DNA of 49,387 nucleotides, from the NCBI GenBank assembly GCA_943327105.2, contig CALPVV020000006.1, positions 1 to 49,387 on the forward strand. Direction: 5' to 3'. The translations under genes and the position numbers were made by a program. This DNA is from Nitrosovibrio sp. Nv4 (lineage in GTDB: Bacteria; Bdellovibrionota; UBA1018; CAIMNF01). The notes beneath the pieces were generated by a model. It was not told the DNA's origin. It worked only from the letters and a program-made list of their open reading frames with translations, and searched no databases. Positions 51-44,080 of this stretch are shown piece by piece. Numbering within the stretch: the stretch's first letter is position 1; each line of letters opens with the position of its first letter.

Positions 51-84
51 TTGCAATCCCTGTTTTTCTGGTTACGATAAAAGT
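51..84 (+). promoter_or_regulatory. sigma70-type promoter, leaderless start of PEBP gene
   Basis: TTGCAA (51-56), a 16-bp spacer and TACGAT (73-78) are followed by only 6 nt before the ATG at 85. The predicted transcription start is the A of the ATG. No Shine-Dalgarno sequence is visible. Confidence 0.6.
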
Positions 85-705
85 ATGAATAAATTTTCTT
101 TAATTATTTCATTTATTTCTGTTTTTTCGATTGAATCATTCGCTCAAAATAAGCCAATCATTGCAAATAATGGATTTACTTTGACGAGTCCCAATCTGCA
201 AGAGAACGGTACGATTCAAATGAAACATGTCTTTGATGGTTTTGGTTGCACTGGCAATAATATTTCACCCGAATTGAATTGGGTGAATCCGCCAGAAGGA
301 ACCAAAAGTTTTGCGCTGACCGTTTATGACCCGGATGCACCCACTGGAAGTGGTTGGTGGCATTGGACGGTTTTCAATATTCCAGCAAACATTCGTTCCT
401 TAAGAGCCGGAGAAAAATTTACCCCGATTAAAACTAAAGGAGGAGTTGTTTCTTTTGGCGCAGTTGGAGAAGGTCGTACTGATTTTGGTAAGCCCGGTTA
501 TGGTGGTCCATGCCCACCGGAAGGTGATAAGCCGCATCGTTATATTTTTACAATTTACGCACTGAAAGAGCCGAAGCTGTTATTGAATCGTGATTCCTCG
601 GGTGCAATGGTTGGTTATACCCTGAATGCAAATCAGCTTGGTAAGGCTTCGATCACCGCATTGTTCGGAAGAGCCGCAAAGCAAGAAACCAAACCTAAAA
701 AATAA
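85..705 (+). CDS. YbhB/YbcL-family (PEBP/Raf kinase inhibitor-like) secreted protein
   Basis: A 206-residue protein with an N-terminal signal peptide (hydrophobic core about 5-18, likely cleavage after the Ala at 20). The phosphatidylethanolamine-binding fold is shown by DPDAP at 82-86, the following GSGWWHWTVFNIP segment and a glycine-rich GYGGPCPP-type loop, the anion-pocket signature of bacterial YbhB/YbcL proteins. The length is normal for the family plus a signal peptide. The bacterial function is poorly defined; ligand binding in the periplasm is the usual assumption. The start is fixed by the promoter 6 nt upstream. The 3' end overlaps the convergent dehydrogenase gene by 11 bp. Confidence 0.9.
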   Translation: MNKFSLIISFISVFSIESFAQNKPIIANNGFTLTSPNLQENGTIQMKHVFDGFGCTGNNISPELNWVNPPEGTKSFALTVYDPDAPTGSGWWHWTVFNIPANIRSLRAGEKFTPIKTKGGVVSFGAVGEGRTDFGKPGYGGPCPPEGDKPHRYIFTIYALKEPKLLLNRDSSGAMVGYTLNANQLGKASITALFGRAAKQETKPKK

Positions 706-1741
706 CGCTGATTTTGCCGATGCTCTTTCTGGTTTCAAGAAGTTCGTGAGCCATCGCTAATTGACTGATTGGAAATTGGCCGTTGTGAACCGTATCAACC
801 AATGGCTTGATCTGACCTTGATTGAAGAGCTCAATGACCTCAGTTAAGATTTCTTTAAATAAAAGAGGATGATGATCGGCCACCCTTAACATATTTACAC
901 CGATCAGATTATTTCCATTCATCATCATCAATGGGGGCGAGAGAAATCCAAAGCCGAGAAGGGTTTTGATTCCGGTGAGCAATGGCCCTCCTTTTGATTG
1001 AGTGTTTTCAGCTACACCGTAGGCGCAAAGCGTTCCCGAAGGCATTAAAAGTGACATGCTTTTTCTGAAGTTTTTTCCACCAATAGCATCGAAAACGGCC
1101 ATCATCGGTTTCAATCCGTGCCTAAGTTCGATTTCTTTTTTGAAATCTTCCTCGCTGTAAAGAATGACTTCATCGGCACCGATTTTTTTTGCGATTTCAG
1201 ATTTGTTCTTCGAACCTACCGTCGTAATGACATAAGCCTTTTTTCTTTTAGCCAGTTGAATCAATGCAGATCCGACACCGCCTGCTCCTGAGTGAACCAA
1301 CACTTTATCGTTTTCAAGAATGCGCATGCTTTTTTCAATCATGTATTGAGCAGTGCAGAACTGTGTTGCCAATGCGCAAGCAACCGAAACAGGTGTCTCA
1401 AGGGTTATCTTTGCACAGGCGAATTCCTGAGCAATTGAATATTGGGCATAACCACCAAATCGGGTGAGTGCGACCACGCGATCGCCAATTTTCAGATGCT
1501 GCACTTTCTCGCCAAGAGCCGTGATAGTTCCGACGACGTCATAGCCAAGAACTGCTGGAAGGGGAGGGGTATCTTGATAGAGTCCTCTTCGGGCCATTAC
1601 ATCGGCAAAATTGAGACCGAAGCCTTCGACTTTGATCAAAACTTCCGTACCGGTTGGTGTCGGAACATCAAGTTCTCGTTCTTCGAATGCCTCATGAGCA
1701 TTTCCGTAGCGAATCAGAGGAAAGGCTTTCATTTTTTTCAT
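695..1741 (-). CDS. zinc-independent MDR oxidoreductase (quinone oxidoreductase/VAT-1-like)
   Basis: A medium-chain dehydrogenase/reductase with the GroES-like N-terminal half (LNFADVMARRGLY, PLPAVLGYDVVGTI) and a Rossmann NADP-binding motif AGGVGSALIQLA. The structural and catalytic zinc cysteines of alcohol dehydrogenases are absent, as in quinone oxidoreductases and VAT-1 homologues. It probably reduces quinones or enones with NADPH in the cytoplasm. I start it at the ATG at 1741 (348 aa) rather than at 1765: TATAGT ends 7 nt before 1741, and the residues in between look unlike the family, which begins near the MKAFPLIRYG segment. It is divergent from pgeF with overlapping -10 elements. 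Confidence 0.85.
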   Translation of the reverse strand: MKKMKAFPLIRYGNAHEAFEERELDVPTPTGTEVLIKVEGFGLNFADVMARRGLYQDTPPLPAVLGYDVVGTITALGEKVQHLKIGDRVVALTRFGGYAQYSIAQEFACAKITLETPVSVACALATQFCTAQYMIEKSMRILENDKVLVHSGAGGVGSALIQLAKRKKAYVITTVGSKNKSEIAKKIGADEVILYSEEDFKKEIELRHGLKPMMAVFDAIGGKNFRKSMSLLMPSGTLCAYGVAENTQSKGGPLLTGIKTLLGFGFLSPPLMMMNGNNLIGVNMLRVADHHPLLFKEILTEVIELFNQGQIKPLVDTVHNGQFPISQLAMAHELLETRKSIGKISVIF

Positions 1742-1748
1742 AGTCCCG

Positions 1749-1756
1749 ACTATACT
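1749..1756. promoter_or_regulatory. bidirectional -10 element for the dehydrogenase gene and pgeF
   Basis: On the plus strand TATACT occupies 1751-1756, 7 nt before the pgeF ATG (1764). On the minus strand TATAGT occupies 1754-1749, 7 nt before the dehydrogenase ATG (1741). The hexamers share four base pairs. Both geometries predict leaderless transcripts. Clear -35 boxes are not obvious on either side. Confidence 0.55.
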
Positions 1757-1763
1757 CGAATGC

Positions 1764-2390
1764 ATGGAATTTGCATTGTTCCAATTTAGCTCAAAAGAAA
1801 AGCAGATTCAGATCGAATCAGGTGTTTTGCCGCATTGGAAACAAGTGCACGGCAAAACGGTGATTGAAGTACTTGGACCCGATCAAGAATGTGGAAACGT
1901 CGATGGGCTTTGGACCTGCGTTCCCCGTCAAAAAGTTGCTGTGGTAACGGCTGATTGTGTACCGATTCTATTAATGAATCGAAAACTTGGAGCCGTTGCC
2001 GCTCTTCATGCTGGTTGGAGGGGTACTCAACAAAGAATCGTGGAATCTTTTTTTCAATCCCTTCCGCCTGAGTTTTCGAATCCAAAAGAGTGGAGCGTTC
2101 TTTTTGGCCCTTCCATTCGTGCTTGTTGTTATGAGGTCAGTGAAGAATTGATTGCCCAATTCAAATCTGAATTTGGAGATTTGAACCCGTCTTTGATTGA
2201 ACCAGAGCACCGTAAGTTAGATCTTCTCGAGGTGAATATTCACCAATTGCAGAAACTGGGTGTCGAAGAGCTCGTTGTACATCCTGATTGTACTTGTTGT
2301 GCCAAATCATCGAATGGCGATTTTAAATACTTCAGTTATCGTCGTGGTGATCGTGATGCTCGGCAATATTCAATCATTTGGCTAAAATAA
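1764..2390 (+). CDS. pgeF: purine nucleoside phosphorylase/polyphenol oxidase PgeF (YfiH family)
   Basis: A 208-residue Cu-oxidase_4/YfiH-family protein. The family motifs are KQVHG (His29), TADCVPIL (Cys65), HAGWRGT (His82) and GPSIRACCYEV, with a C-terminal CTCC segment. The conserved His/Cys/His set binds the metal. Homologues are described both as laccase-like enzymes and as purine nucleoside phosphorylases acting on adenosine and inosine, and as editing enzymes that keep peptidoglycan precursors correct. The N-terminus is short compared with about 240-aa homologues, but the motifs are complete. It starts 7 nt after TATACT and has no Shine-Dalgarno sequence. Confidence 0.9.
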   Translation: MEFALFQFSSKEKQIQIESGVLPHWKQVHGKTVIEVLGPDQECGNVDGLWTCVPRQKVAVVTADCVPILLMNRKLGAVAALHAGWRGTQQRIVESFFQSLPPEFSNPKEWSVLFGPSIRACCYEVSEELIAQFKSEFGDLNPSLIEPEHRKLDLLEVNIHQLQKLGVEELVVHPDCTCCAKSSNGDFKYFSYRRGDRDARQYSIIWLK

Positions 2391-2416
2391 CGCACCTCTT
2401 CAGGTTGCAAATCGGC

Positions 2417-2430
2417 TATCATTGATAGTC
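2417..2430 (+). promoter_or_regulatory. -10-like element before pepF
   Basis: TATCAT (2417-2422) lies 8 nt before the ATG at 2431. There is no good -35 box and no Shine-Dalgarno sequence in the 40-bp gap after pgeF. It fits the leaderless pattern of the window, but weakly on its own. Confidence 0.35.
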
Positions 2431-4236
2431 ATGAGCGAACAATTCCAAAACCGCAACGATGTCCCCGAAAAATACCGCTGGAACCTGGATCTGATGTATT
2501 CCGATCAGGAAGCGTGGGAAAAAGATTTCAAAAAAATTGATGAACTGACTGCAGCTTCAGAGTTGTTCCGTGGAAAGCTTGCGGAAAGTGCAGTGACTTT
2601 GAAAAAAGCCTTCGATGCCGAAACAGAGTTGAATATTCTCATCGAAAATCTTTACAGCTTTGCAAGTCATCGCTCTGATGAAGATACCCGCAATGCGAAT
2701 AACCTGGGTATAGTCGGACGCATCACTTCAAAGTCAGTTGAAGTCAGTGCTCGTTTGTCGTGGATGGATCCTGAATTGCTGGAAGCACCGGTTGAAAAGT
2801 TAAAACAGTTTCAAAATGATTCATTGTTAAAGGACTACTCCCGTAAAATTGAAAATCTGATTCGTTCAAAACCCCATCAGAGAAGTGCTGAAGTAGAAGA
2901 GATCCTTTCGCTTGCTTCTGACCCGATGGGTGGTGCTCATCATACGTTCAGTTTGCTTGAAAATGCAGATATGCCCATGCCTAAGATCAAGGATTCAAAC
3001 GGCAATGAGATTGAAATCAATCACGGCACCTATTTTTCTGTTTTGGAATCACCCGACCGTGAATTTAGAAAGCGCGGTTTTGAAGCCTATATTGGTGCTT
3101 TTTCACAATATAAAAACACCTACGCATCCACGCTGGAAACGAACGTCAAGAACCATGTTTTCAATGCCAAGGTAAGAAGATTTCCAAGTGCGATTGAGGC
3201 TAGTTTATTCAGTGATGCGATTCCACTCAGCGTTTACAATGGCTTGATTGATACGGTACATGCCCATTTACCTTTATTGCATCGATTGGTGAGTTTGAGA
3301 AAAAGATTACTCGGTGTTGAGCAGTTGCAAATGTACGACTTGTTCGTACCGATGGTAAAGCCCGCACAGATTGAAATCAATTATGATGAAGCCTGCAAGA
3401 TGGTAACCGAGGCGGTTGAGCCGCTTGGGAAGCAATACGTGAATGACCTTAAGAAGTCATTCGATGAGCGTTGGATCGATGTGTATTACACATCAGGTAA
3501 GCGTTCTGGTGCGTATTCAGGCGGAACTTACCAGTCGAAACCGTATATTTTGTTGAACCATCAACACAATCTCGGAAGCGCGTTCACATTGGCGCATGAA
3601 TTGGGCCATTCATTGCACTCGTATTATTCGAAACAACAGTCGTATGCAAAATCACATTATCCGATTTTCTTGGCTGAGATCGCTTCCACGACGAACGAGA
3701 TGCTGTTGCACTTTCATCTTTATGAGAAAGCCCAAAGCCGTGAAATGAAAATGTATCTGCTTGATCATTTGTTCACGCAGTTCAGGGCAACGCTTTTCCG
3801 TCAGGTTCAGTTTGCCGAATTCGAACGCGATATTCATGCGATGGTCGAGCGCGGAGAACCTCTAACTTCACAAAGCTTATGTGAACATTACGGTAAAATG
3901 AATGCCAAGTATTATGGCCCGGACATGTCTGGTAATGGGTCTGATGAGAATGATCCGATTCGTTTTGAATGGTCACGAATCCCACACTTCTATTACAACT
4001 TCTATGTTTATAAGTATTCGACCAGTTTTGCCGCTTCTCAATACTTTGCGCGTAAGATTCAAGATGGCGATCAGGCAACCCGTGAGAAATACCTCGAGTT
4101 CCTCGCTTCAGGATGCAGCATGGATCCGCTTGATACCATGATCCGTGCCGGAATGGATCTTCGTGATTCAAAACCGATCGAAGCAGCGTTCAAGATCTTC
4201 GAAGAAGCGCTGGATGAATTCGAGAAGCTGATTTAG
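2431..4236 (+). CDS. pepF: oligoendopeptidase F (M3B metallopeptidase)
   Basis: A 601-residue M3-family oligoendopeptidase. It has the N-terminal all-helical PepF domain and the catalytic HELGH zinc motif (His389, Glu390, His393), with the downstream LAEIASTTNE segment supplying the third ligand Glu. It degrades short cytosolic peptides. The length matches typical PepF (about 600). A TTG in frame at 2422 would add three residues, but the ATG at 2431 is preferred because homologues start near the RNDVPEKYRW segment and a -10-like hexamer lies 8 nt before it. Its stop codon overlaps the stop of the convergent dioxygenase gene. Confidence 0.93.
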   Translation: MSEQFQNRNDVPEKYRWNLDLMYSDQEAWEKDFKKIDELTAASELFRGKLAESAVTLKKAFDAETELNILIENLYSFASHRSDEDTRNANNLGIVGRITSKSVEVSARLSWMDPELLEAPVEKLKQFQNDSLLKDYSRKIENLIRSKPHQRSAEVEEILSLASDPMGGAHHTFSLLENADMPMPKIKDSNGNEIEINHGTYFSVLESPDREFRKRGFEAYIGAFSQYKNTYASTLETNVKNHVFNAKVRRFPSAIEASLFSDAIPLSVYNGLIDTVHAHLPLLHRLVSLRKRLLGVEQLQMYDLFVPMVKPAQIEINYDEACKMVTEAVEPLGKQYVNDLKKSFDERWIDVYYTSGKRSGAYSGGTYQSKPYILLNHQHNLGSAFTLAHELGHSLHSYYSKQQSYAKSHYPIFLAEIASTTNEMLLHFHLYEKAQSREMKMYLLDHLFTQFRATLFRQVQFAEFERDIHAMVERGEPLTSQSLCEHYGKMNAKYYGPDMSGNGSDENDPIRFEWSRIPHFYYNFYVYKYSTSFAASQYFARKIQDGDQATREKYLEFLASGCSMDPLDTMIRAGMDLRDSKPIEAAFKIFEEALDEFEKLI

Positions 4237-5057
4237 TGAAACGATCTGCTGTGTTCATCGGTGTTTTTTGAATTCAATGCAAATGAAAGCATGGAAAGAC
4301 TGAAATATTCCACGCCTCGATGCAGTATCTTGAGTTCATCACCCGGTAGAGCGGCACCAATAGCACAAATAATCGGTAAAAAATGTTCTTCTGAAGGATG
4401 CGATAAGTAAAAGTGCGGATGTTCTTCGGCATTGACCAGGGAATCAACGTCTTTTTTCTCAATCGTTTTGATCAGCCACTCTTCGAACTCTTTTGCCCAT
4501 GATGCGCCTTCAAGTGTTTTATGTGACCATTTCAGTTCACGTAGGTTATGAACGGCACCACCACTCGAAATGATCATGACGCCTTCTTCGCGTAAAGATG
4601 CCAGCGAATAGCCCATTTTGAGAATCTTTGCCGGAGTAAGATTGAGCGGAAGACTGATTTTCACCACAGGAACATCACCTTTTGGATAAAGGTGTTTCAT
4701 CGGTACCCAAATACCATGATCGAGGGGAGAGTCGGTTTCAATCTTCGTTTGAAATCCATTTTTCTTGAGCAATTGTACGATCTGATCGGAAAGTTCGGGT
4801 GCTCCGTTGCAGTCATATTCGATCTTGTAAAGTTCAGGTGGAAAACCGTTGAAATCATGAATGATGCGGTTCTTTTCAGTTTTGAGTACATGAACCGTAT
4901 CAGACGAAACCGAGTGAGCAGAAATGAACACGATGGCCTTGGGTTTTGGGAAGGAGCTGGAATAATTTTCCAGCATTTCTGAAAATTGATCTTCACCGAA
5001 TGCAAGCATCGGGGAACCGTGGCTGATAAACATGCTTGGATAACGAAATGTACTCAT
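4233..5057 (-). CDS. ygiD: extradiol ring-cleavage dioxygenase, YgiD/LigB type (4,5-DOPA dioxygenase-like)
   Basis: A 274-residue class III extradiol dioxygenase. Visible family motifs are FISHGSP near residue 13, ISAHSV, SPLDHGIWVP and the C-terminal HPSEEHFLP. The histidines are those that bind non-haem Fe(II) or Zn in LigB-type enzymes. YgiD converts L-DOPA to 4,5-seco-DOPA in other bacteria; the substrate here is unknown. It is transcribed divergently from a LysR-family gene, the usual arrangement of a LysR regulator and its target. Its start is 6 nt after a TTGATT-17-TAGGAT promoter, so the mRNA should be leaderless. Confidence 0.88.
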   Translation of the reverse strand: MSTFRYPSMFISHGSPMLAFGEDQFSEMLENYSSSFPKPKAIVFISAHSVSSDTVHVLKTEKNRIIHDFNGFPPELYKIEYDCNGAPELSDQIVQLLKKNGFQTKIETDSPLDHGIWVPMKHLYPKGDVPVVKISLPLNLTPAKILKMGYSLASLREEGVMIISSGGAVHNLRELKWSHKTLEGASWAKEFEEWLIKTIEKKDVDSLVNAEEHPHFYLSHPSEEHFLPIICAIGAALPGDELKILHRGVEYFSLSMLSFALNSKNTDEHSRSFH

Positions 5058-5106
5058 TCGACAATCCTATTTGAAAGCGTGTCTCCAATCAAGTTAGGAT
5101 ATGGGT
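5058..5106. promoter_or_regulatory. interleaved divergent promoters of the dioxygenase and lysR genes
   Basis: Minus strand: TTGATT (5092-5087), 17 bp, TAGGAT (5069-5064), then 6 nt to the ATG at 5057. Plus strand: TTGAAA (5071-5076), 18 bp, TAGGAT (5095-5100), then 6 nt to the ATG at 5107. Each -35 lies inside the other promoter's spacer, and together they form an inverted repeat TTGA-N14-TCAA. Two polymerases could not sit here together. Confidence 0.7.
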
Positions 5107-7021: not shown

Positions 7022-7034
7022 TACCGATAGTTTA
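7022..7034 (-). promoter_or_regulatory. -10 element of the chrA promoter, leaderless GTG start
   Basis: TAAACT (7034-7029 on the minus strand) is followed by 7 nt and the GTG start at 7021. The -35 position falls within the inverted repeat at 7042-7063 and resembles the consensus poorly. Confidence 0.5.
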
Positions 7035-15039: not shown

Positions 15040-15051
15040 GGGTTTAGAATA
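15040..15051 (-). promoter_or_regulatory. -10-like element before tolB
   Basis: TATTCT (15051-15046, minus strand) is 6 nt before the tolB ATG. A weak -35 (TTCAAT) lies 18 bp upstream. It would allow tolB to be transcribed separately from tolQRA as a leaderless mRNA. Confidence 0.4.
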
Positions 15052-19298: not shown

Positions 19299-20419
19299 TC
19301 TTCCTTGCGGCTTTGATTGCGACAAGTGCATTAGCTCAAAGCAATCCATCTTCACTGAACCAAAAACTGGAACAAGTGAAGACCCAGAAGCTTGCCATCG
19401 AAAAAGCGTTGATCGATGCTGAAGCAACCAAGAAAAACACGGAAGCCCAGCTTTCCCGTTTGAAATCGCTTCAAAAGCTTCAGGCTCAGGAAAAAGAGCT
19501 GACCCAGCGTCGTCTTGGTGATTTGGAGAAGTATCTCAATGAACTCAATACTCGTCGTGATGATGTTCAACGTCGTATTGATCAGACCCATGGACAGTTA
19601 AGAGTCAAATTTTCAAGATTGATTCACCCCTTGCTTTCACAAAACGAGCGACTCATGCGCGGTGAAGAGGGTGCGGGCGAAGCGCGCATCAAGGAAACCA
19701 TTCTTTCAAGCATCGTTCTGACCGAATTGAAAGAGCTTGAAACCATGCACGCGGATTTGCTCGATGTGGATGAGCTTCAGGGGCGGATTGAGCAAGAAAA
19801 ACAGCAAATTTCAAGCCTTTTGCAGGATATTTCCGAGCAGGAATCGCTCATTACTTTTCACAAGAAAATTCGTTCCGACCTGACCAGTGAAAAGCATGCC
19901 GAGCACATGAAGCAGCTCGAAGACTTCCGCAAGATCAAGGTGGCTGAGGTTGAGATTGAAAAAATGATCATTCAGTTCCAAGGGCGCCAAAAAATGGAAC
20001 AAGCCATGGACGAGAAGAAGCGAATGGTTCAGGTTCAAATCCGTCCGAAGAGTTTGCCTTGGCCGATGAAGGGTAAAGTGGTTTCAACCTACGGTCAGCA
20101 AAAAGATGAAGTTTCCGGTTTGAATATCTTCAAAAAAGGCATCGAGATTCAAACGCTTCAGGGGACCACTTCCATTCAAGCCGTTGCGGATGGAACAGTT
20201 CAGTTTTCTGGTGCGGTTCCGGGCAAAGGCAATGTCGTCATCGTTGAGCATCCGGGTTTGATTTACTCGGTTTATGGCGGGCTGCAAAATGTCATCAAGC
20301 AAACAGGTGAGTCGGTGAAGGTGTCAGAAAACCTCGGTACGATTCCACTTGAAAGCGCACTGTATTTTGAAATTCGGGTGAGAAACGTAGCCATCGACCC
20401 CGTGAAATGGTTACAATAG
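19295..20419 (+). CDS. envC: EnvC-like murein hydrolase activator (coiled coil plus degenerate LytM/M23 domain)
   Basis: A 374-residue protein with a signal peptide (about 1-14, cleavage after SALA), a long coiled coil (about 20-225) and a C-terminal M23/LytM domain (about 250-374). The metal ligands of active M23 peptidases are lost: the usual HxGID segment is KKGIEI here, and HLHFEI is ALYFEI. The same losses mark E. coli EnvC, which activates amidases instead of cutting peptidoglycan. The domain ends with the EnvC-like VAIDPVKWL. It is coupled to ftsX by ATGA. Confidence 0.9.
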   Translation: MIFLAALIATSALAQSNPSSLNQKLEQVKTQKLAIEKALIDAEATKKNTEAQLSRLKSLQKLQAQEKELTQRRLGDLEKYLNELNTRRDDVQRRIDQTHGQLRVKFSRLIHPLLSQNERLMRGEEGAGEARIKETILSSIVLTELKELETMHADLLDVDELQGRIEQEKQQISSLLQDISEQESLITFHKKIRSDLTSEKHAEHMKQLEDFRKIKVAEVEIEKMIIQFQGRQKMEQAMDEKKRMVQVQIRPKSLPWPMKGKVVSTYGQQKDEVSGLNIFKKGIEIQTLQGTTSIQAVADGTVQFSGAVPGKGNVVIVEHPGLIYSVYGGLQNVIKQTGESVKVSENLGTIPLESALYFEIRVRNVAIDPVKWLQ

Positions 20420-26314: not shown

Positions 26315-26344
26315 GTGATCTGTAACAAGTGTAACACAGATGAC
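26309..26344 (+). promoter_or_regulatory. candidate promoter with TGTAACA direct repeat between MurQ-like and solute-binding genes
   Basis: TTGCAT (26309-26314), 17 bp, TAACAC (26332-26337), then 7 nt to the ATG at 26345. The -10 is weak. Two TGTAACA copies (26321-26327 and 26330-26336) spaced 9 bp lie across the region, a possible operator for the divergent pair, whose starts are 30 bp apart. Confidence 0.35.
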
Positions 26345-27616
26345 ATGTCTAAAACAAAGCTAGCCTTCCTGGTTTTCGTACTCGCTTTTGGTGTCAATGT
26401 GATCGCGTTCGTCCTTTCTAAGAAGGCCTACGTGATTGAAGAGGTCAAAAATGTGTGGCTTTACGAATTGCCGATGTCGTCTTCTCCGGTTGATGCGTAT
26501 GTGGCCGAAGAATTTGGTCCTCATCAAGGAATTATTGGAACGCTGTATCATTTAAAAGAAGCCGATGAGTGGAAGCCTGAAGGTAAGCAGGCCGGAGTTT
26601 TGACTCTCCGCTTAAAAACAGGCCTTACTTTTTCAAACCAAGAACCCATTTTGCCAGAGCACTGGAAGCAATCGTTTGAGTGGGCGAAGCCTTATCTTGA
26701 AAAATGGTCGGCAGATTTGTATTGGGGCGCCTACCTTTCAGCTGAACAGCAATGGGTATCACCAACCGAAGTGCGCTTTGTATGGAAGTCTTTGCCGGCA
26801 GCATTTGATGCACAAGTTTTCATGAAGTCGGTGCTGTCGCATCCGATGGCCGGAGTCTTTCATCCCTCCAATTTGAAAGAAAAAAACCCGAAAAAGAATT
26901 GGGTTTCATCTGGACCTTATCGGGTCCGTAAATGGAATCCGAAAGAAATCACCTTGGTTTCCCGCGACGATTTTCCGGTGACGATTCCAAAACAGTTTTT
27001 CCGAACCCTCAAGTATCAAAGTGCACCGGTTAAAAATCCTTCCTGTGATTTCATGCAGGCACAGCCGGGTGAAGAAAAAGCGCTTGAAGATCACCGCGTG
27101 AATCCGGTGAATCAAACACTTCACTTGTTCTGGGCTTGTCGCTCATGGAAAGAAGCGGGATCTTTTTGTTCGAATGCTCAAAATCGAGAAAATTTCGCAA
27201 AACTCATGGGTTCATCTGGTGCAGTTTCGGGCATGAGTTTTTCGCCTTCCCAGTTGCGCTACCGCATTCCTTTCGGTTCAGACGCATTCCGAAACGAAAT
27301 TATTCAAAAAATTTCATCAGGCATGAAGGCCGCTGGTGGCAAGGTTGAAGAGATCTCTTATTTCTTCAAGCCTTCAACTGATGCCGATATCGAGCTGCTG
27401 TTTGTGGTGGCCGATTCTCGTATTTCTTCTGAAATTGCCTCAAAAATGGCTACTTTTAGTACTCGATTGGCGGTTGACGGTGTAGATGCACCAGCGAATT
27501 TGGTGGGAGAGGTTGCGCGTTATCCGCTTCAAGTGCTCATGAAAAACATGAAAGGCGATGCCTTCTCGAAAGTTTTTTTGGAGCCTGATCTCGAAGAGAA
27601 AAAATTACCGTTGTAA
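26345..27616 (+). CDS. membrane-anchored, degenerate peptide-type solute-binding protein (SBP_bac_5-like)
   Basis: A 423-residue protein with an N-terminal signal anchor (about 7-25) and no lipobox. The OppA/DppA-type motif SSGPYRVRKWNPKEITLVSRDDF (about 190-212) and an upstream VFMKSVLSHPMAGVF segment place it in the SBP_bac_5 family. It is shorter than the usual 500-550 residues and no ABC permease or ATPase genes are nearby, so it may act as a sensor or scavenger instead of a transporter subunit. Divergence from the MurQ/GCKR-like gene hints at muropeptide recycling, which is speculative. The start at 26345 is preferred over the frame opening at 26309. Confidence 0.65.
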   Translation: MSKTKLAFLVFVLAFGVNVIAFVLSKKAYVIEEVKNVWLYELPMSSSPVDAYVAEEFGPHQGIIGTLYHLKEADEWKPEGKQAGVLTLRLKTGLTFSNQEPILPEHWKQSFEWAKPYLEKWSADLYWGAYLSAEQQWVSPTEVRFVWKSLPAAFDAQVFMKSVLSHPMAGVFHPSNLKEKNPKKNWVSSGPYRVRKWNPKEITLVSRDDFPVTIPKQFFRTLKYQSAPVKNPSCDFMQAQPGEEKALEDHRVNPVNQTLHLFWACRSWKEAGSFCSNAQNRENFAKLMGSSGAVSGMSFSPSQLRYRIPFGSDAFRNEIIQKISSGMKAAGGKVEEISYFFKPSTDADIELLFVVADSRISSEIASKMATFSTRLAVDGVDAPANLVGEVARYPLQVLMKNMKGDAFSKVFLEPDLEEKKLPL

Positions 27617-27645
27617 ATTCTGAAAGATTGTCTATTTTGGTTTTC
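27611..27645 (+). promoter_or_regulatory. leaderless promoter of papain-like gene
   Basis: TTGTAA (27611-27616), 16 bp, TATTTT (27633-27638), then 7 nt to the ATG at 27646. No Shine-Dalgarno sequence is present. Confidence 0.6.
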
Positions 27646-28428
27646 ATGAAATTTTTCTTGGCTCATCTTTGCCTGATCATCGCTGGTTTGACCTGTACTA
27701 CGGTTGCCTTTGCTCAAGCTGAAAAAGGGTTGCCTTCTCACTACACGGGCTTGAATGACTATGTGGTAGAGGCTCCGAATCAGGGCCAAGTGAATACGTG
27801 TCTATTCATGGCTGCGACCGGCGCGATGGAAATCTTGCTCAGCAAGAAACTGGGGATTCGTCATCCTGAAGCCAATGGCCCTACTGATATCTCAGAGCGT
27901 TATACAATTTCGGAAAATTTTTCATCGAAGCGTTCGCGTTCTTGGTTTGAAGATGCTTTTTTGAAGTTCGATTCAGGTGAGGCAGTTTTGACCCGAGATA
28001 TGCCGTTTGAATCATTTGATGAAGATGGTGATATTAACTACAGTGTTTGGAATCGTCCTGCAAACTTCGATAGCGCACCACGCGTCAAGCTCCCTAAGAT
28101 TGAAACCATCTATCTTTTTTCTCACGACAAATACTCAAAAGGAGTTTTGAATCAAGAGCATCTTAATCATGTGAAAGAGTCTTTGGTGAATCATGAAAGT
28201 CCGATTATCACTGTCGGGAATGATGAAGACTATTGGCACGTAACCGTGATTGTCGGGTATGACGATAACCTTGTTGGCGATTGCTATGAGCTCGATTCAA
28301 GTGTTTGTGAAGGAAAAAAGGGCTCATTTTATGTGCGCGATTCTTTCGGTACCCGCATTGAAGCCCGCTCTTATGAGTGGTTTCTTCGCCGCCAAAATTC
28401 CGCTGCGATAGCGAAGCTTGCAGAGTAA
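27646..28428 (+). CDS. secreted papain-like protein with Asn-to-Asp change in the triad
   Basis: A 260-residue protein with a signal peptide (about 1-24, VAFAQ). The layout matches C1-family proteases: PNQGQVNTCLFMAATGAMEI (Cys52 with the preceding Gln), YWHVTVIVGYDD (His198) and YVRDSFG (Asp232), where papains have NSWG. The Asp for Asn change may lower or alter activity. It differs in detail from the first papain-like protein at 23893-24696. The start at 27646 gives a normal signal peptide; the frame opens earlier with a TTG at 27628 inside the promoter. Confidence 0.75.
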   Translation: MKFFLAHLCLIIAGLTCTTVAFAQAEKGLPSHYTGLNDYVVEAPNQGQVNTCLFMAATGAMEILLSKKLGIRHPEANGPTDISERYTISENFSSKRSRSWFEDAFLKFDSGEAVLTRDMPFESFDEDGDINYSVWNRPANFDSAPRVKLPKIETIYLFSHDKYSKGVLNQEHLNHVKESLVNHESPIITVGNDEDYWHVTVIVGYDDNLVGDCYELDSSVCEGKKGSFYVRDSFGTRIEARSYEWFLRRQNSAAIAKLAE

Positions 28429-28453
28429 TCGGGTGGGGGGTACACTGTTCCCC
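28418..28453 (+). promoter_or_regulatory. leaderless promoter of secreted-protein gene
   Basis: TTGCAG (28418-28423), 17 bp, TACACT (28441-28446), then 7 nt to the ATG at 28454. The -35 lies in the last codons of the upstream gene and the spacer contains the G-rich run GGGTGGGGGG. Confidence 0.65.
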
Positions 28454-30120: not shown

Positions 30121-30133
30121 TAACTTAGCCCTC
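30121..30133 (+). promoter_or_regulatory. -10 element before lysS
   Basis: TAACTT (30121-30126) lies 7 nt before the lysS ATG at 30134. The -35 region is not convincing. No Shine-Dalgarno sequence. Confidence 0.4.
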
Positions 30134-34019: not shown

Positions 34020-34083
34020 GACATTTAATTAATTAAATATATTTAGTTGATAAATTAAACAAGTTGAGCTAATCTTCAGCCCC
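34020..34083 (+). promoter_or_regulatory. strong promoter with A/T-rich upstream tract, leaderless protease gene
   Basis: TTGATA (34047-34052), 17 bp, TAATCT (34070-34075), then 8 nt to the ATG at 34084. The 20 bp before the -35 are almost all A/T, with TTAATTAATTAA and ATATATTTA, resembling an UP element. No Shine-Dalgarno sequence. Confidence 0.65.
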
Positions 34084-36476: not shown

Positions 36477-36514
36477 TTGATCAATCCATACTAAAAGGTA
36501 TAGATTAGCCGGAT
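36477..36514 (+). promoter_or_regulatory. promoter of the nfu gene, short or no leader
   Basis: TTGATC (36477-36482), 18 bp, TAGATT (36501-36506), then 8 nt to the ATG at 36515. TATAGA at 36499-36504 with a 16-bp spacer is an alternative -10. Confidence 0.5.
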
Positions 36515-37742: not shown

Positions 37743-37789
37743 AACGATTCCTCTAGTCGCTGATCCGTTCCGTGGATTGCTTTATTCAA

Positions 37790-37818: not shown

Positions 37819-37873
37819 TGTCGGCAGCGTCAAAAAAAAACTGAAATTTTATTCTCAATCCGCAAGGGGGTGT

Positions 37874-37885
37874 TATCGTTAAGGC
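37874..37885 (+). promoter_or_regulatory. -10 element before PHP-domain gene
   Basis: TATCGT (37874-37879) is 6 nt before the ATG at 37886. The -35 region is poor. AAGG lies too close to the ATG to act as a ribosome-binding site. Confidence 0.45.
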
Positions 37886-39292
37886 ATGAAAAGGCTAGGG
37901 ATTACCACGGTTTTGGCAATCTGCACTACCGCTTGTTCCAATATGGACCCAAGCCCGGGTCTGGTGAATACCCTTGAGCTGGGTACGGTACGCGGGTTTC
38001 ACTATGAGCGCGTGATCACCCACATGCATACGCCTTATTCTTTTGATGCCTGTGATGGTAAGGGTATCAACAGTGACGGCACTCTGAACCTCGACTGTCT
38101 TCATGATCTTAAAAAGGCTCTTTGTACAAACCACATCAACCTGACGTTCAATACTGATCATGTAAACTACCTTGCTCAGACTGACTTTGAAAAAATGCTG
38201 TTGCTCGAAGACGGTGAAACGGCAGTGACCAACGGTACTGGTGACCGGGTTGCAAATCGACTTGCTTGTGCTGACGGATTCAGTGCAGTCATGGCCCCGG
38301 GGCTTGAAGGCAAAATGCTTGCCCTTGGAATGGAAAAGCATGTTTCAGGTACCGTTGCTGATCGAGAGGCTGTTTACGGCGGAGAAAGTACAACTGAAAA
38401 AACGACTCTTGAATCGGCAATTGCCAGTGGCGGATCAAACGCACTCGTCGCGATTCCGCATACGGAAAGCCGTGATCTGACTTTGTTGAGATCGTTGAGT
38501 CCAGCAGCGATCGAGATCTATAACTTGCACGCCAATCTCGACCCTAAAATCAGAAAAGCATCGCTTGGGTTCAAACCTTTTGAACACATCGCGAAGTTCA
38601 TGAATTATCTTCTCGATTTTTTCAACACACAAAACCCCGATTACCTCTTTGTCGAATTCTTTCAAATGAGCGAAGTCTATCTTCAAAAGTGGAACACGCT
38701 TTTGTCTGAAAACAGGCACATCACCGGTTTGGCTGGTCACGATTCGCATGAAAATGTTTTTCCGCAAAAGGCTTCTGATGGTGAACGACTCGATCAACAT
38801 CGACGTATGACCCGTATGTTCAGTAATTTCGTGATGACCACTTCAAGTTCAATTGATTCGATCAAGACGTCGATCCGTGACGGTAAGGTCTTCTTTGTTC
38901 TAGAAGGTCTGGGTTCACCCGTTGGTTTTGATTTTCATGCCGAAGTGAATGCAAGTGTGATTGAAATGGGTTCTACCGCAACGGTCGTCCCCGGCGATAC
39001 TTCTGCCTTGGTTTTTAAGGAACCAACCGTGATTTCCTCATTTCCGGGAATGGATTCAGATGAGTCTCCGGCCATCTATTCAGAACTGCATTTCATTGAT
39101 GCGACAGGCGCTGAAAGTGTGGTGGCTTCACAAGCGGGAGGTACGCTGAATTATGCGAATCCACCGGCGGGCCATTACCGTATTCATGTGTTCATGAAGC
39201 CGCTCCATCTTGAAGATCTGGTATTCAAGAGCAACTATGTCGAAAAATATTATCCTTGGATCATTTCCAATCCGATCAGGGTGAGTCCATGA
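37886..39292 (+). CDS. exported PHP-domain phosphoesterase-like protein
   Basis: A 468-residue protein with an N-terminal signal sequence ending near TTACS; a lipoprotein modification at Cys17 is possible but the lipobox is weak. PHP-domain metal motifs are present in order: HMHTPYSFDAC (His46, His48), NTDHVNY, IPHTESRD and GHDSHEN. The last ~110 residues look like a beta-sandwich. PHP proteins are metal-dependent phosphoesterases or nucleases, usually cytosolic, so an exported one is unusual. It is coupled by ATGA to a small barrel-like protein. Confidence 0.8.
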   Translation: MKRLGITTVLAICTTACSNMDPSPGLVNTLELGTVRGFHYERVITHMHTPYSFDACDGKGINSDGTLNLDCLHDLKKALCTNHINLTFNTDHVNYLAQTDFEKMLLLEDGETAVTNGTGDRVANRLACADGFSAVMAPGLEGKMLALGMEKHVSGTVADREAVYGGESTTEKTTLESAIASGGSNALVAIPHTESRDLTLLRSLSPAAIEIYNLHANLDPKIRKASLGFKPFEHIAKFMNYLLDFFNTQNPDYLFVEFFQMSEVYLQKWNTLLSENRHITGLAGHDSHENVFPQKASDGERLDQHRRMTRMFSNFVMTTSSSIDSIKTSIRDGKVFFVLEGLGSPVGFDFHAEVNASVIEMGSTATVVPGDTSALVFKEPTVISSFPGMDSDESPAIYSELHFIDATGAESVVASQAGGTLNYANPPAGHYRIHVFMKPLHLEDLVFKSNYVEKYYPWIISNPIRVSP

Positions 39293-39924
39293 GTAAGTGT
39301 TTTTTTGCACTACTCATGATGTTATCCGCTTCGGTCGCTTCGGCATCAGCACCATCAATGTCGGCTCCGCCTTCAGTTCGACGTGCATTGACTTTGGGCC
39401 TGATGTTGCCCCAGCCGATATCGGTCGGGTATGAAACTGTTTTTCCTGGTCTTGAGCTATTTCATTTTTTTGCTGAGGGCGGTTATTTTTCGCTCCCGCT
39501 TTCAAGTCGACTAAAGAATATTTCGACTTGGAGTATCCAGGCCGGCACGCGCTATTTCCCGCTCCAAAATTGGTTATATTTGTCCGGTTCACTCGGATTC
39601 CGTCAGATCGGAGTCGGAGCTGACATTTCGAGTCTTAAAATGGATGGGGTTTCACTCGCTAATGATGCCAATCTCACGCTGAATTCAGCCATTATTGGCC
39701 TCTGCGTAGGTGGACAATGGAATCTCAATGAGTCCATGGCCCTGACTTTTGAGGCGGGTGCCCAGCTGCCATTGCCATGGTTACATGGGGGCAAAACTAC
39801 GATTGTGCAGGATGTTCCTGATGGTACCGATCTGAGTGTTGACGACTCAGATGCGTTATATCGAATTTCGGGAATGCCGGTTCCTCAAATTGCACTCGTC
39901 CGCTTCATTTGGTATGTTCTCTAG
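39289..39924 (+). CDS. small outer-membrane beta-barrel-like protein
   Basis: A 211-residue protein with a signal peptide (about 1-20, SVASASA). The rest alternates amphipathic strands and glycine turns (FAEGGYFSLPL, SIQAGTRYFPL, LYLSGSLGFRQIG, LTFEAGAQLPLPW), consistent with an eight-stranded barrel. It starts with the ATGA overlap at 39289, although the frame opens at 39256. The last 35 bp carry the ettA promoter. No function is recognised beyond likely outer-membrane location. Confidence 0.75.
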   Translation: MSKCFFALLMMLSASVASASAPSMSAPPSVRRALTLGLMLPQPISVGYETVFPGLELFHFFAEGGYFSLPLSSRLKNISTWSIQAGTRYFPLQNWLYLSGSLGFRQIGVGADISSLKMDGVSLANDANLTLNSAIIGLCVGGQWNLNESMALTFEAGAQLPLPWLHGGKTTIVQDVPDGTDLSVDDSDALYRISGMPVPQIALVRFIWYVL

Positions 39925-39926
39925 CT
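39890..39926 (+). promoter_or_regulatory. ettA promoter inside the upstream gene's 3' end, leaderless
   Basis: TTGCAC (39890-39895), 17 bp, TATGTT (39913-39918), then 8 nt to the ATG at 39927. The whole promoter lies within the last codons and stop of the barrel-protein gene. Confidence 0.6.
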
Positions 39927-41621
39927 ATGGCAAAACCTAAGTTCGCATTCTCGATGAGTCGAGTTTCCAAAATCTATCCACCCAGCAAGCAAGTTCTCCG
40001 CGATATTTCGCTTTCGTTTTTTTACGGAGCAAAAATCGGTATTCTCGGATTGAACGGCGCCGGAAAATCTACCTTGATGAAAATCATCGCGGGTGAAGAA
40101 AAAAACGTGAACGGTGAAGTGTTGCCATCGGATGGAATCACATTCGGTTACCTGAAGCAGGAACCAGAACTGGATCCGAACAAGACTGTTCGCGAAGTGG
40201 TGATGGAAGGTACAGGTGAATTGGGTCGCGATTTGAAGCGCTTTGAAGAAATCGGACTCGCCTTTGCTGATCCTGATCTTGATCCTGATATGATGACCAA
40301 ACTTTTGGAAGAACAAGCGGTCATTCAAGAACGCATCGAAGCCAAAGATGGTTGGGATATTGACCGTAAACTCGAAGTGTCGATGGAAGCCCTTCGTTGT
40401 CCTCCGGCCGATGCATTGATTAAAAATCTTTCGGGTGGTGAGCGTCGTCGTGTGGCGCTTTGTCGATTGCTCATTCAGCGTCCTGATGTACTTCTTCTCG
40501 ATGAGCCGACCAACCATTTGGATGCAGAATCCGTGTCATGGCTTGAAGACTTCCTTCAAAAGTACGAAGGCACCGTCATCGCCGTAACCCACGATCGTTA
40601 CTTCCTTGATAATATTGCAGGCTGGATTTTGGAACTTGACCGTGGTCATGGAATTCCATGGGAAGGAAACTATTCAAGCTGGCTTGAACAGAAGCAGAAT
40701 CGTTTGGCTCAAGAAGAGAAACAAGAATCAAAACGCCAAAAAACATTGGCTCGCGAGCTCGAATGGATTCGCATGAGCCCTAAAGCGCGCCAAGCAAAGA
40801 GCAAGGCCCGCGTCAGTGCATACGAGCAATTGCTTGCTGAAAACCAAGGCGGCAAGCGCGATGAAGAAATGGAAATTTTCATTCCTGCAGGCCCTCGTCT
40901 CGGTGGTGTGGTGCTTGAAGCCAATGGCATCAGCAAGAAATTCGGTGATAAAGTTCTTTTTGAAAACCTTGATCTCAAGATTCCTCCGGGAAGTATTGTC
41001 GGAATCATCGGCGGAAACGGAGCGGGTAAATCCACTCTCTTCAAGATGATGACTGGTCTTGAGACGCCTGATTCCGGAATGATTCGAGTCGGAGAAACCG
41101 TGAAGCTCGCTTACGTTGATCAATCGCGCGATACGCTTGATCCGAATGTGACTGTTTGGGAAGAAATTTCTGATGGTAAGAACGAAACCATTCTTCTGGG
41201 TAACCGCGAAGTATCTTCTCGCTCATACTGTGCACGTTTCAATTTCTCTGGTGGCGATCAGCAAAAGCAGGTTGGAATTCTTTCTGGTGGTGAGCGTAAC
41301 CGCTTGCACTTGGCAAAAATCCTGAAAGCCGGCGCTAACGTCATTCTTCTCGATGAGCCGACGAACGACCTCGACGTGAACACGCTTCGTGCGCTTGAAG
41401 AAGCACTCGTGAACTTTGCGGGAACGGCGATGGTGATTTCGCATGATCGCTGGTTCTTGAACCGCATCGCGACCCACATCATTGCCTTCGAAGGCGATTC
41501 GAAAGTGGTGTTCTTTGAAGGTAACTACCAAGATTACGAAGAAGACAAGAAACGTCGCCTTGGTCCGGATGCACTCATGCCGAAACGCATTCGCCACAAA
41601 GTGGTCGAATCCTTCCGCTAA
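39927..41621 (+). CDS. ettA: energy-dependent translational throttle protein EttA (ABC-F ATPase)
   Basis: A 564-residue ABC-F protein with two ATPase cassettes: Walker A GLNGAGKST and GGNGAGKST, signatures LSGGERRR and LSGGERNR, Walker B LLLDEPTNHLD and ILLDEPTNDLD. The linker between them (about 245-315) has the charged P-site tRNA-interaction motif region, and the end KRIRHKVVESFR resembles EttA. EttA binds the ribosomal E site and gates elongation by ATP/ADP ratio. The start at 39927 matches the family N-terminus (MAKPKFAFSM). The gene is followed by the only clear intrinsic terminator in the window. Confidence 0.95.
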   Translation: MAKPKFAFSMSRVSKIYPPSKQVLRDISLSFFYGAKIGILGLNGAGKSTLMKIIAGEEKNVNGEVLPSDGITFGYLKQEPELDPNKTVREVVMEGTGELGRDLKRFEEIGLAFADPDLDPDMMTKLLEEQAVIQERIEAKDGWDIDRKLEVSMEALRCPPADALIKNLSGGERRRVALCRLLIQRPDVLLLDEPTNHLDAESVSWLEDFLQKYEGTVIAVTHDRYFLDNIAGWILELDRGHGIPWEGNYSSWLEQKQNRLAQEEKQESKRQKTLARELEWIRMSPKARQAKSKARVSAYEQLLAENQGGKRDEEMEIFIPAGPRLGGVVLEANGISKKFGDKVLFENLDLKIPPGSIVGIIGGNGAGKSTLFKMMTGLETPDSGMIRVGETVKLAYVDQSRDTLDPNVTVWEEISDGKNETILLGNREVSSRSYCARFNFSGGDQQKQVGILSGGERNRLHLAKILKAGANVILLDEPTNDLDVNTLRALEEALVNFAGTAMVISHDRWFLNRIATHIIAFEGDSKVVFFEGNYQDYEEDKKRRLGPDALMPKRIRHKVVESFR

Positions 41622-41644
41622 AAAAAGACCCCTGGGGCTTTTTT
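41621..41644 (+). terminator. intrinsic terminator after ettA
   Basis: An A-tract (41621-41626), a short GC stem GACCC / GGGC with a bulged A and a CTG loop, then TTTTTT (41639-41644). A and T tracts extend the stem and would also allow termination from the opposite strand. Confidence 0.75.
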
Positions 41645-41683
41645 GATGCTGGGTGTGTTATTTTAAAGAATTAAAGGATCATC

Positions 41684-42454
41684 ATGTTTATCAGAAAAGA
41701 ATGGATCGATAAAACCGAGTTTCACCCTCATTCCAGTGCAGAAGTGCTGAAAGAGGTGATGGTTCGCACTCAAAAAGTGCTCGATCAAAAGAAGCTTCCG
41801 GTGGTTATCTTTGACCTCGATTCCACGCTTTTTCATGTATCTCCTCGTTCTTTTGAAATTTTAAAAGAGTGGGCGAAAGCCTCATCCGTTTCAATTCTTC
41901 CTGACTTGAAGGAAGAAGACATGGGCTATTCGATTGAAGACGTATGGGTCAAAAAGGGGCTTTCGATCGAGACCGGTGAGTCATTCAAGCACCTGAAAGA
42001 TGCAAAGGACTTTTGGCGTAAACGTTTTTTTTCAAATGAGTACATTCATCATGATCTGCCCCATGCGGGCGCGGTGGAATATGTCAGACGGCTTTATGAG
42101 ATGGGCGCGAAGATTGTATACCTTACCGGTCGCGATGTGCCGTTAATGGCCTTTGGTACTGTTGATCATCTTCGAAACTGCGGATTCCCTGTTGAAGTTG
42201 AGCGCACGCGTTTAATTTTAAAACCCAAGCGTCACATTGATGATTTGGTTTTCAAGGCCGGAGTCTGCAAAGCCGCTTCAGAGTGGGGTGAAGTCGTGGC
42301 TTCATTTGAAAACGAGCCTAAAAATCTTGTGGCAATGCAAGAAGCCCTTGGCCCAAAAGCGATGCATATTTTTTTCGAGTCAGTGAGCAGTGACCATGCT
42401 GCTCCGGCGGCGAAAGAAGTATATCGCATTCACGATTTCAAGCTCGAATCATAA
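41684..42454 (+). CDS. HAD-superfamily phosphatase-like protein
   Basis: A 256-residue cytosolic HAD hydrolase. Motif I is FDLDSTLF (Asp44 nucleophile, Asp46), motif II is YLTGRD, and a lysine in LILKPKR is motif III. Motif IV is ASFENEP instead of a DxxxD, a variant seen in some HAD groups. The C1-type helical cap lies around residues 70-120. The substrate is unknown. AAAGGA stands 6 nt before the ATG, one of the few clear Shine-Dalgarno sites here. Confidence 0.82.
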   Translation: MFIRKEWIDKTEFHPHSSAEVLKEVMVRTQKVLDQKKLPVVIFDLDSTLFHVSPRSFEILKEWAKASSVSILPDLKEEDMGYSIEDVWVKKGLSIETGESFKHLKDAKDFWRKRFFSNEYIHHDLPHAGAVEYVRRLYEMGAKIVYLTGRDVPLMAFGTVDHLRNCGFPVEVERTRLILKPKRHIDDLVFKAGVCKAASEWGEVVASFENEPKNLVAMQEALGPKAMHIFFESVSSDHAAPAAKEVYRIHDFKLES

Positions 42455-42460
42455 CTTCCG

Positions 42461-42496
42461 CTGGAAATCTGACGTGAGCGAGTTACAATTTTGGTC
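42461..42496 (+). promoter_or_regulatory. promoter of GT-C membrane protein gene, leaderless
   Basis: CTGGAA (42461-42466, weak -35), 17 bp, TACAAT (42484-42489), then 7 nt to the ATG at 42497. There is no Shine-Dalgarno sequence. Confidence 0.5.
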
Positions 42497-44080
42497 ATGA
42501 GCCTAAATCGATCGCTTAGAAATTTTCTAATCATTATCGCTGTTTCCACCATTATTTTATATCTGGTCGCCGTTAATGGACCATTCATTTACGATGATGG
42601 CGGTCAAATCGTCAATCGCACCAAGCTTCATAGTTTGTACTATTTCAAGGATGTATTGTTTTGCGGATTAAGGCAGCACCGCGTTTGGCAGAATATTTCA
42701 TTTGCGATGAACTGGATGATTTCAGATGGAAAACCATGGAGCTTCAAGGTTTTCAGTCTTGGTCTTCATCTGACCAATGCTTACATTCTGTTCCAATGGC
42801 TTAAAAAATTATTTTCTGAAAAGCCATTCGTGCCTGTCCTGACAACGGCGATGTTTCTGATTCATCCGCTGCAGACTCAGTCGGTGACTTACATCATGGG
42901 TGTGATCACCTTGATTCAGAGCTTTTTTTATCTGATTTCGATCTACTGGATTCATCAATACCGATTGACCCGAATGGGGGGGCTGGTGGCGATTTTGATC
43001 GCTTCGCTTTTCGCAAAAGAAACCTGCATGCTCATACCGATCTTGTTGTTCGGTTATGATTTCGTTGTGCTTCGCAAACCGGGTGAGAAAATCGAGTGGA
43101 AAAAATGGGCCATTATCTTTGCGGTGCCACTTCTGTTCTTTCCAATTTATCATGTATTGAAAGATCCGGTGTCGATGTACAAGGGCACTTCCGGCTTCAA
43201 TCTCTATCCGTTCTTTCTCTATCTTTCCTCTCAGCTTTATTATCAGGTTTTTTATTTTGAACTGCTTTTCAATCCGACAATTCAAAGCATCATTCATGAG
43301 GCTCCGGTGATGGGGCCAACTGAATCGGTGATGGCTTTTTTCGGAGGTTTGAGTTGGTTGATTGCGATCGGATTCATGTTTCTGAAATTCAAGAAATATC
43401 CTCGCACGGCATTTTTTCTTCTTTTGTACTTTGTGAATTACATGCCGACGAACAGCGTTTTTCAGATGATCAATCCGTTTGCAGAATATCGGTTATATTT
43501 GAGTAATATCACTTTATTCCTGGGCATTTCTGTTCTGCTTGGCCTTCTCGTTGAGTGGATGAATCAAAAAAAATGGATCAAGAATCCAGAGCTGACGCTA
43601 TCATCCTTATTGATGTTGTATTTTTCGGTCTTCACCTTTTTGACACTTTGGATCTGGCGTTCTGAAGTCAGTACTTACAGTCGAGGAGTGAATCTTTATC
43701 CCAATAGTGAATTGTTGAATGTCAATCTGGGGGGTGTGTATCACGACCAAAAAGATAACGAGTCGGCATACTTTTATTATATGAGAGTGCGAGCGATTGC
43801 GGGTTGGATGTACGGCCCAGTTGGCCAGAACTGTTTTATTGTAGCGAAAGATGCATTTGCGGCGGGGCAGCTTGAGCTGGCTTGGAAAATCGTCGATGCG
43901 CTTGACCGTGATCCGGCTAAAGACCCGATGCCGAAGGCGTTTTATGATTTGAAAGAGCAAGTGAAGAAAAAGGTGATCGAAAAAGGACTTTCGTTGGATA
44001 CTGGTTTTGATCAAATGATCAAGGATGGCCAATTATTCACGTTAAAACAGCGCCCAAAAGAGGACAAAATTCGTGACTGA
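42497..44080 (+). CDS. GT-C-type membrane glycosyltransferase-like protein with C-terminal TPR-like region
   Basis: A 527-residue protein with about ten transmembrane segments over residues 8-410, then a soluble C-terminus resembling a tetratricopeptide repeat (SELLNVNLGGVYHDQKDNESAYFYYMRV). The first periplasmic loop has the acidic pair YDDGGQI, followed by RVWQNISFAMNW and IHPLQTQSVTYIMG, the pattern of TMTC and related bacterial polyprenyl-phosphate-dependent GT-C enzymes. It may transfer a sugar from a lipid carrier to a protein or glycan outside the cytoplasm. The next gene starts inside its end (8-bp overlap). Confidence 0.78.
   Translation: MSLNRSLRNFLIIIAVSTIILYLVAVNGPFIYDDGGQIVNRTKLHSLYYFKDVLFCGLRQHRVWQNISFAMNWMISDGKPWSFKVFSLGLHLTNAYILFQWLKKLFSEKPFVPVLTTAMFLIHPLQTQSVTYIMGVITLIQSFFYLISIYWIHQYRLTRMGGLVAILIASLFAKETCMLIPILLFGYDFVVLRKPGEKIEWKKWAIIFAVPLLFFPIYHVLKDPVSMYKGTSGFNLYPFFLYLSSQLYYQVFYFELLFNPTIQSIIHEAPVMGPTESVMAFFGGLSWLIAIGFMFLKFKKYPRTAFFLLLYFVNYMPTNSVFQMINPFAEYRLYLSNITLFLGISVLLGLLVEWMNQKKWIKNPELTLSSLLMLYFSVFTFLTLWIWRSEVSTYSRGVNLYPNSELLNVNLGGVYHDQKDNESAYFYYMRVRAIAGWMYGPVGQNCFIVAKDAFAAGQLELAWKIVDALDRDPAKDPMPKAFYDLKEQVKKKVIEKGLSLDTGFDQMIKDGQLFTLKQRPKEDKIRD

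Follow-up and report, generated by a model that had tools for sequence, protein, structure and literature searches.

In the 49,387-nucleotide contig CALPVV020000006.1 of assembly GCA_943327105.2 (the whole stretch analysed here, hereafter the window), and in the metagenome-assembled genome (MAG) to which it belongs, hexamers of the form TAnnnT end 6-8 nucleotides (nt) before the start codons of a minority of genes. We consider it very probable (about 0.88) that these hexamers are the -10 elements of sigma-70-type promoters, that the transcripts begin at the start codon, and that they undergo leaderless initiation, as a minority mode beside Shine-Dalgarno (SD) initiation. The reality of promoters abutting start codons in this genome is strongly supported by the sequence patterns; a transcription start at the start codon and leaderless translation would follow by inference. 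Under the sigma-70 geometry, a transcript begins about 7 nt after the -10 element. When this general rule is applied to the position of the hexamers, leaderless mRNAs are predicted: RNA polymerase, starting about 7 nt past the -10 element, would begin the RNA on the A that opens the start codon or up to two bases earlier, the resulting mRNA would carry no SD leader, and ribosomes would bind the 5'-terminal AUG.

Hexamers before start codons of the window

An earlier note on this DNA had listed 17 such starts in the window. All 17 hexamers were found to end 6-8 nt before the proposed start codons, and TTGnnn was present at 16-18 base pairs (bp) spacing at exactly the eight starts named for it (85, 5057, 5107, 27646, 28454, 34084, 36515 and 39927). 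The elements are listed below, with gene products named by Pfam matches and ortholog cells defined further on.

73-78, plus strand: -10 TACGAT, 6 nt before ATG 85 (PEBP-family protein); -35 TTGCAA at 51-56, spacing 16
1749-1754, minus strand: -10 TATAGT, 7 nt before ATG 1741 (zinc-binding dehydrogenase); partly superimposed on the -10 of divergent gene 1764
1751-1756, plus strand: -10 TATACT, 7 nt before ATG 1764 (PF02578); TATA common with the -10 of 1741
2417-2422, plus strand: extended -10 GnTATCAT, 8 nt before ATG 2431 (peptidase M3, oligopeptidase F-like); hexamer in 4/8 ortholog cells
5064-5069, minus strand: -10 TAGGAT, 6 nt before ATG 5057 (LigB domain); -35 TTGATT at 5087-5092, spacing 17
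5095-5100, plus strand: extended -10 TAGGAT, 6 nt before ATG 5107 (LysR-type regulator); -35 TTGAAA at 5071-5076, spacing 18
7029-7034, minus strand: extended -10 TAAACT, 7 nt before GTG 7021 (chromate transporter family)
15046-15051, minus strand: -10 TATTCT, 6 nt before ATG 15039 (PD40 beta-propeller repeats)
20412-20417, plus strand: extended -10 TACAAT, 7 nt before ATG 20425 (S41 peptidase), lying within the preceding gene at its 3' end; hexamer in 1/4 ortholog cells
27633-27638, plus strand: -10 TATTTT, 7 nt before ATG 27646 (no Pfam match); -35 TTGTAA at 27611-27616, spacing 16
28441-28446, plus strand: extended -10 TACACT, 7 nt before ATG 28454 (no Pfam match); -35 TTGCAG at 28418-28423, spacing 17; hexamer in 5/7 ortholog cells
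30121-30126, plus strand: extended -10 TAACTT, 7 nt before ATG 30134 (class II D/K/N tRNA synthetase, presumed to be the lysyl enzyme); hexamer at 5-7 nt in 9/9 ortholog cells
34070-34075, plus strand: extended -10 TAATCT, 8 nt before ATG 34084 (no Pfam match); -35 TTGATA at 34047-34052, spacing 17
36501-36506, plus strand: -10 TAGATT, 8 nt before ATG 36515 (Nfu/NifU scaffold); -35 TTGATC at 36477-36482, spacing 18; hexamer in 6/6 ortholog cells
37874-37879, plus strand: extended -10 TATCGT, 6 nt before ATG 37886 (no Pfam match); hexamer in 5/6 ortholog cells
39913-39918, plus strand: extended -10 TATGTT, 8 nt before ATG 39927 (ABC ATPase, taken as ABC-F/EttA-like); -35 TTGCAC at 39890-39895, spacing 17; hexamer at 5-9 nt in 4/11 ortholog cells
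42484-42489, plus strand: extended -10 TACAAT, 7 nt before ATG 42497 (no Pfam match)

A G was present two bases before the hexamer at 11 of these 17 starts and a pyrimidine at position -1 at 15, while an SD core was flagged at two (5057 and 5107), because AGGA sits inside their TAGGAT hexamer. Starts were also set by a motif-blind gene caller using dicodon statistics and start-codon type only, with the upstream sequence ignored; an earlier version built on the usage of single codons lacked power (586 genes, 41 of them in the window) and was superseded. On one 50 kb stretch of E. coli, cut and very short coding sequences being left out, the dicodon caller found 41/41 supplied annotated coding sequences and placed 35/41 starts exactly. 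In the window it picked the same start as the earlier note in 14 of the 17 cases and differed in three, preferring ATG 5101 over 5107, ATG 15036 over 15039 and ATG 37943 over 37886. With blind starts, 14 of the 45 window genes carried the hexamer at 6-8 nt (2, 8 and 4 at 6, 7 and 8 nt, respectively). The chance expectation of 1.5 among 33 starts, given earlier, proved slightly low, the genome background yielding about 2.2 per 33 for three distances.

A genome-wide positional peak

The source MAG, from an uncultured bacterium, comprises 2.31 Mb in 137 contigs and is 92% complete. The genome sample covered 810 kb of it (the window together with 20 further contigs, taken whole or in part), with 698 genes called, of which 424 had a "non-tight" start, i.e., one that does not follow a same-strand gene at 25 nt or less. 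Background per distance was the mean TAnnnT count over distances 12-45 before the non-tight starts, namely 9.35. The sharp genome-wide peak of TAnnnT beside start codons, by which the idea was to be checked, was observed: 77 of the 424 non-tight starts carried the hexamer at 6-8 nt against 28.1 expected (p = 2e-14), the counts at distances 3 to 10 being 1, 9, 2, 38, 25, 14, 14 and 7. When all 698 sampled genes were considered, 53, 30 and 17 hexamers were found at distances 6, 7 and 8; at the 393 non-tight starts outside the window, 36, 18 and 11. No such peak was present before 4378 internal in-frame ATGs. The window was denser in hexamer starts than the rest of the sample (12/31 vs 65/393 non-tight starts, Fisher p = 0.004), and therefore its 17 of 45 is not to be extrapolated.

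An unsupervised two-motif expectation-maximization on upstream regions collapsed, its "no signal" class going to zero, and a scan of three-base gapped patterns opening a six-base frame at distances 0-13 (17,920 tests) was used instead. In the window's own genome, SD patterns came top, GnTAnn at the extended -10 place ranked fourth (59 vs 14.0) and TAnnnT at 6-8 nt ranked tenth (77 vs 25.7, p = 2.5e-16), being the best pattern free of G. In the first 200 kb of the relative G002, TAnnnT at 6-8 nt was the best pattern of all (17 vs 3.5); the same scan in genomes G012, G016 and G029 gave no comparable non-G pattern. Separately, a mild TAnnnT bump was seen at distances 37-39 (18, 16 and 19 of 698 vs about 12 per distance), perhaps corresponding to promoters of leadered genes.

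Promoter anatomy

The sequences around the hexamers were compared in 77 hexamer genes of the own genome and in 50 from 600 kb of G002. At 16-18 bp, 35 boxes resembling -35 elements were counted in the 77 genes and 26 in the 50 genes of G002, whereas any three other spacings gave on average 13.7 and 6.7, respectively. The spacing peaked at 17 bp (18 boxes in each genome), with a further 13 at 16 bp in the own genome. G at -14 reached 0.45 in the own genome and 0.50 in G002 (0.25 and 0.27 in control hexamers), and the fifth base ahead of the hexamer was T in 0.57 and 0.50 (vs 0.34 and 0.40). Compared with all non-tight starts, hexamer starts more often had a pyrimidine at -1 (0.77 and 0.88 vs 0.58 and 0.66) and less often an SD core (0.06 and 0.14 vs 0.27 and 0.29). 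When a position-weight matrix was trained on either genome and applied to the other, both showed, at low thresholds, an excess amounting to 12-13% of their non-tight starts; among tight starts the excess was 4-7% at thresholds 2-4. The ATG share, 96/100 vs 542/598 (p = 0.08), is suggestive only for translation from a 5'-terminal start codon.

Conservation in the genus

Ortholog cells were defined by the best tblastn match with at least 40% identity and a covered N-terminus, in 21 pieces from 11 genomes of the same genus; each ortholog start was set by alignment and codon type, with the hexamer ignored, and the cell was scored for TAnnnT at 5-9 nt. In the proposed comparison with related genomes, the hexamer was found in 47/71 cells for the claimed starts and in 7/101 for the other window starts, although the cells are not independent because the relatives share ancestry. 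Matches were obtained for 14 of the 17 claimed genes (genes 85, 1741 and 42497 had none in the same-genus pieces) and for 22 of the 28 others, with expectations per cell, from distances 15-34, of 0.09 for the claimed genes and of 0.05 per cell for the others. SD cores were present in 0.24 of the cells of claimed genes and in 0.53 of those of other genes. Before the lysyl-type tRNA synthetase gene (30134), the T, A, T and the distance are kept across orthologs while the middle bases vary; in one cell the chosen start falls 18 nt further inside the gene than the aligned position. The two neighbouring genes, 29347 and 31711, had the hexamer in 1/7 and 0/9 cells. Upstream of the oligopeptidase F gene (2431), some relatives carry the hexamer and others an SD-like stretch; these differences appear to reflect turnover between initiation modes, some orthologs having apparently switched. 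Such ortholog pairs, one apparently leaderless and the other SD-led, would allow a switch of initiation mode to be observed within the genus.

Over 361 kb of sequence new to the profiling, drawn as eleven pieces from seven genomes of the genus, 35 TAnnnT were counted against 7.9 expected (p = 1.4e-12), a result that is not independent of the window because these pieces are syntenic with it. There too, -35 boxes and G at -14 accompany the hexamer.

Share of genes and alternative explanations

Dominance of the leaderless mode was not supported. The excess of the strict motif corresponds to about 11-13% of the non-tight starts and about 9% of all 698 genes; an SD core precedes 27% of the non-tight starts. 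In our judgement, leaderless genes make up about 9-20% of the genes, alongside SD-led genes, a range that allows for errors in start calls and for promoters missing one of the three fixed bases.

Several observations weigh against leaderless initiation from promoters abutting the start codon. About one third of the strict hits in the genome (28/77) are expected by chance, and in the own genome an off-spacing of 9 bp also shows 13 -35-like matches. Among 46 reciprocal best hits between the own sample and 600 kb of G002, the hexamer was shared by 4 pairs (7 own, 10 in G002), a weak association (p = 0.03), and no association was detected with G012, G016 and G029 (9, 21 and 15 pairs). Start-based profiles of G029 (p = 0.3) and G137 (p = 0.1) showed no significant TAnnnT excess. 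Besides, a -10 element at 6-8 nt could also yield leaders of 1-3 nt, which would be indistinguishable from none.

The alternative that survives best accepts the promoters as real and holds that many transcripts carry very short leaders (about 1-5 nt), only part of them being strictly leaderless. It overlaps with the leaderless reading, so that the probabilities of the two are not exclusive, and we regard it as a serious possibility, if somewhat doubtful. Distances 7, 8 and 9 are also raised in the own genome (25, 14 and 14 vs 9.35), and the ABC ATPase gene (39927) has its hexamer at 8-10 nt in several relatives; however, the largest peak lies at exactly 6 nt in both the own genome and G002, the A of ATG being preceded by a pyrimidine at -1. 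That the hexamers are instead a T/A-rich translation signal, or an effect of base composition near starts, fits the A+T-richness of the upstream regions but is highly improbable given the -35 boxes at promoter spacing and the G at -14, the internal ATGs devoid of a peak, and the depletion at 6-8 nt in SD-type controls (E. coli 3 vs 7.4, Bacillota 6 vs 32.7, Lachnospiraceae 4 vs 13.2, Lentisphaerae-type 2 vs 6.6). A selection artefact or a lucky window, suggested by the admission in the earlier note that a few starts were partly chosen for the hexamer and by the density of the window, is the least likely explanation, since the blind starts recover 14 of 17, a genome-wide peak persists outside the window, and the caller is accurate on E. 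coli.

Relation to known systems

Leaderless genes are already known in many bacteria, and this genome would add another case. Judged by a single protein, its four nearest relatives that bear names (64-70% identity) are MAGs under the labels Oligoflexia, Bdellovibrionales and Bdellovibrio, which does not place it in the Deinococcota; a 16S family search of this genome gave no match. The suggestion that leaderless transcription had not been described for such a bacterium is weaker than it seemed, as leaderless genes were predicted in 8 of 33 delta-proteobacterial genomes, with a mean of 15.8% and a range of 5.7-20.6% (Zheng et al., 2011; PMC3160421). The hexamer of those genes, like the present one, is TA-like and stands at a fixed distance; they lack an SD and, as here, form a minority mixed with SD-led genes; the word "Bdellovibrio" does not occur in the main text of that article. 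In Deinococcus-Thermus, a -10 motif a few bp before the open reading frame leads to leaderless mRNA (PMC12340547), a pattern in which the motif is taken to act as promoter with no -35. A Deinococcus deserti plasmid, used as positive control, gave 14 hexamers vs 1.7 expected, and its strict-motif excess (0.114 in 200 kb) was close to that of our genome (0.115); the -35-like boxes differ, with 35 vs 13.7 here and 1 vs 1.7 in the small D. deserti sample (14 genes). Mycobacterium tuberculosis is another bacterium with extensive leaderless transcription, mapped there by experiment (PMC3898074), whereas here it is predicted from sequence.

Bdellovibrio bacteriovorus is a related predatory bacterium, its kinship to this MAG being deduced from the names of the relatives. 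Its attack-phase map of transcription start sites comprises 140 promoters, 92 of them FliA-type, and the term "leaderless" has no occurrence in the available text (PMC3627812); in PMC9753608, as available, it occurs only inside a reference title. Judging by titles and the beginnings of abstracts, the open-licence literature on leaderless genes and Bdellovibrio or Bdellovibrionota yielded no study on the topic. More broadly, predicted leaderless transcription is cited for 21.6% of bacterial species in the StartLink paper (PMC9581028). Our results predict leaderless expression in a lineage related to bacterial predators, and gene finders oriented toward SD may misannotate the starts of such genes.

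Possible wider occurrence

Start-based profiles showed an excess in G012, G014 and G016 (p = 0.002 to 0.006). At the whole-genome level, the count of TGnTAnnnT-6-ATG was compared with that of the same pattern at 12 nt. The ratio was 2.23 in the own genus (862 vs 387; above 1 in 12/12 genomes), the own genome being weaker than its genus (64 vs 41, p = 0.016). One family of the same order (f2) gave 1584 vs 872 (34/35 genomes above 1), and 87 genomes of the phylum outside the class gave 6267 vs 4359 (ratio 1.44; 81/87 above 1). By family, 15/24 were above 1 at p < 0.05, and f9, f11, f12 and f19 were near or below 1. These four families, with genomes of 1.2-2.0 Mb, lack the excess, unlike most families; one small genome (f17, 1.4 Mb) has it. 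The 22 genomes from other phyla gave 3491 vs 3305 (ratio 1.06), yet 16/22 were above 1, singly up to 1.88. The phylum-wide extent is a lead only, because the control set is mostly Bacillota and contains no proteobacteria.

Closely spaced divergent genes

At the divergent pair 1741/1764 (1739-1766), 22 nt separate the start codons and the two -10 hexamers overlap in a common TATA; therefore, the -35 region of each gene falls inside the other gene. Divergent pairs whose starts lie 10-45 nt apart number 14 in the sampled genome; 13 have at least one hexamer start and 4 have both. Hence, 17/28 starts at such gaps carry the hexamer, compared with 19/136 at gaps above 100 nt. The excess at close pairs was not significant in G002 (5/22 vs 18/118, p = 0.28). 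The prediction, suggested by the own genome and set when the G002 result was already known, that close divergent starts carry the hexamer failed in the syntenic relatives (0/14 starts in 7 pairs, several of which are apparently one orthologous locus). Three further predictions set together with it held in those relatives, subject to their synteny with the window. It is conceivable, though unlikely on balance, that leaderless -35/extended -10 promoters are an old trait of the whole phylum (taken as Bdellovibrionota), lost in some small-genome families, and that in the species of the window they allow very tight head-to-head pairs with overlapping -10 elements and each -35 inside the partner gene.

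The space at 26315-26344, upstream of 26314 (minus strand) and of a possible start at 26345 (plus strand), contains a near-palindrome around TGTTACACTTGTTACA, which may be an operator. TTACACT elements like it are found between closely spaced divergent genes of relatives.

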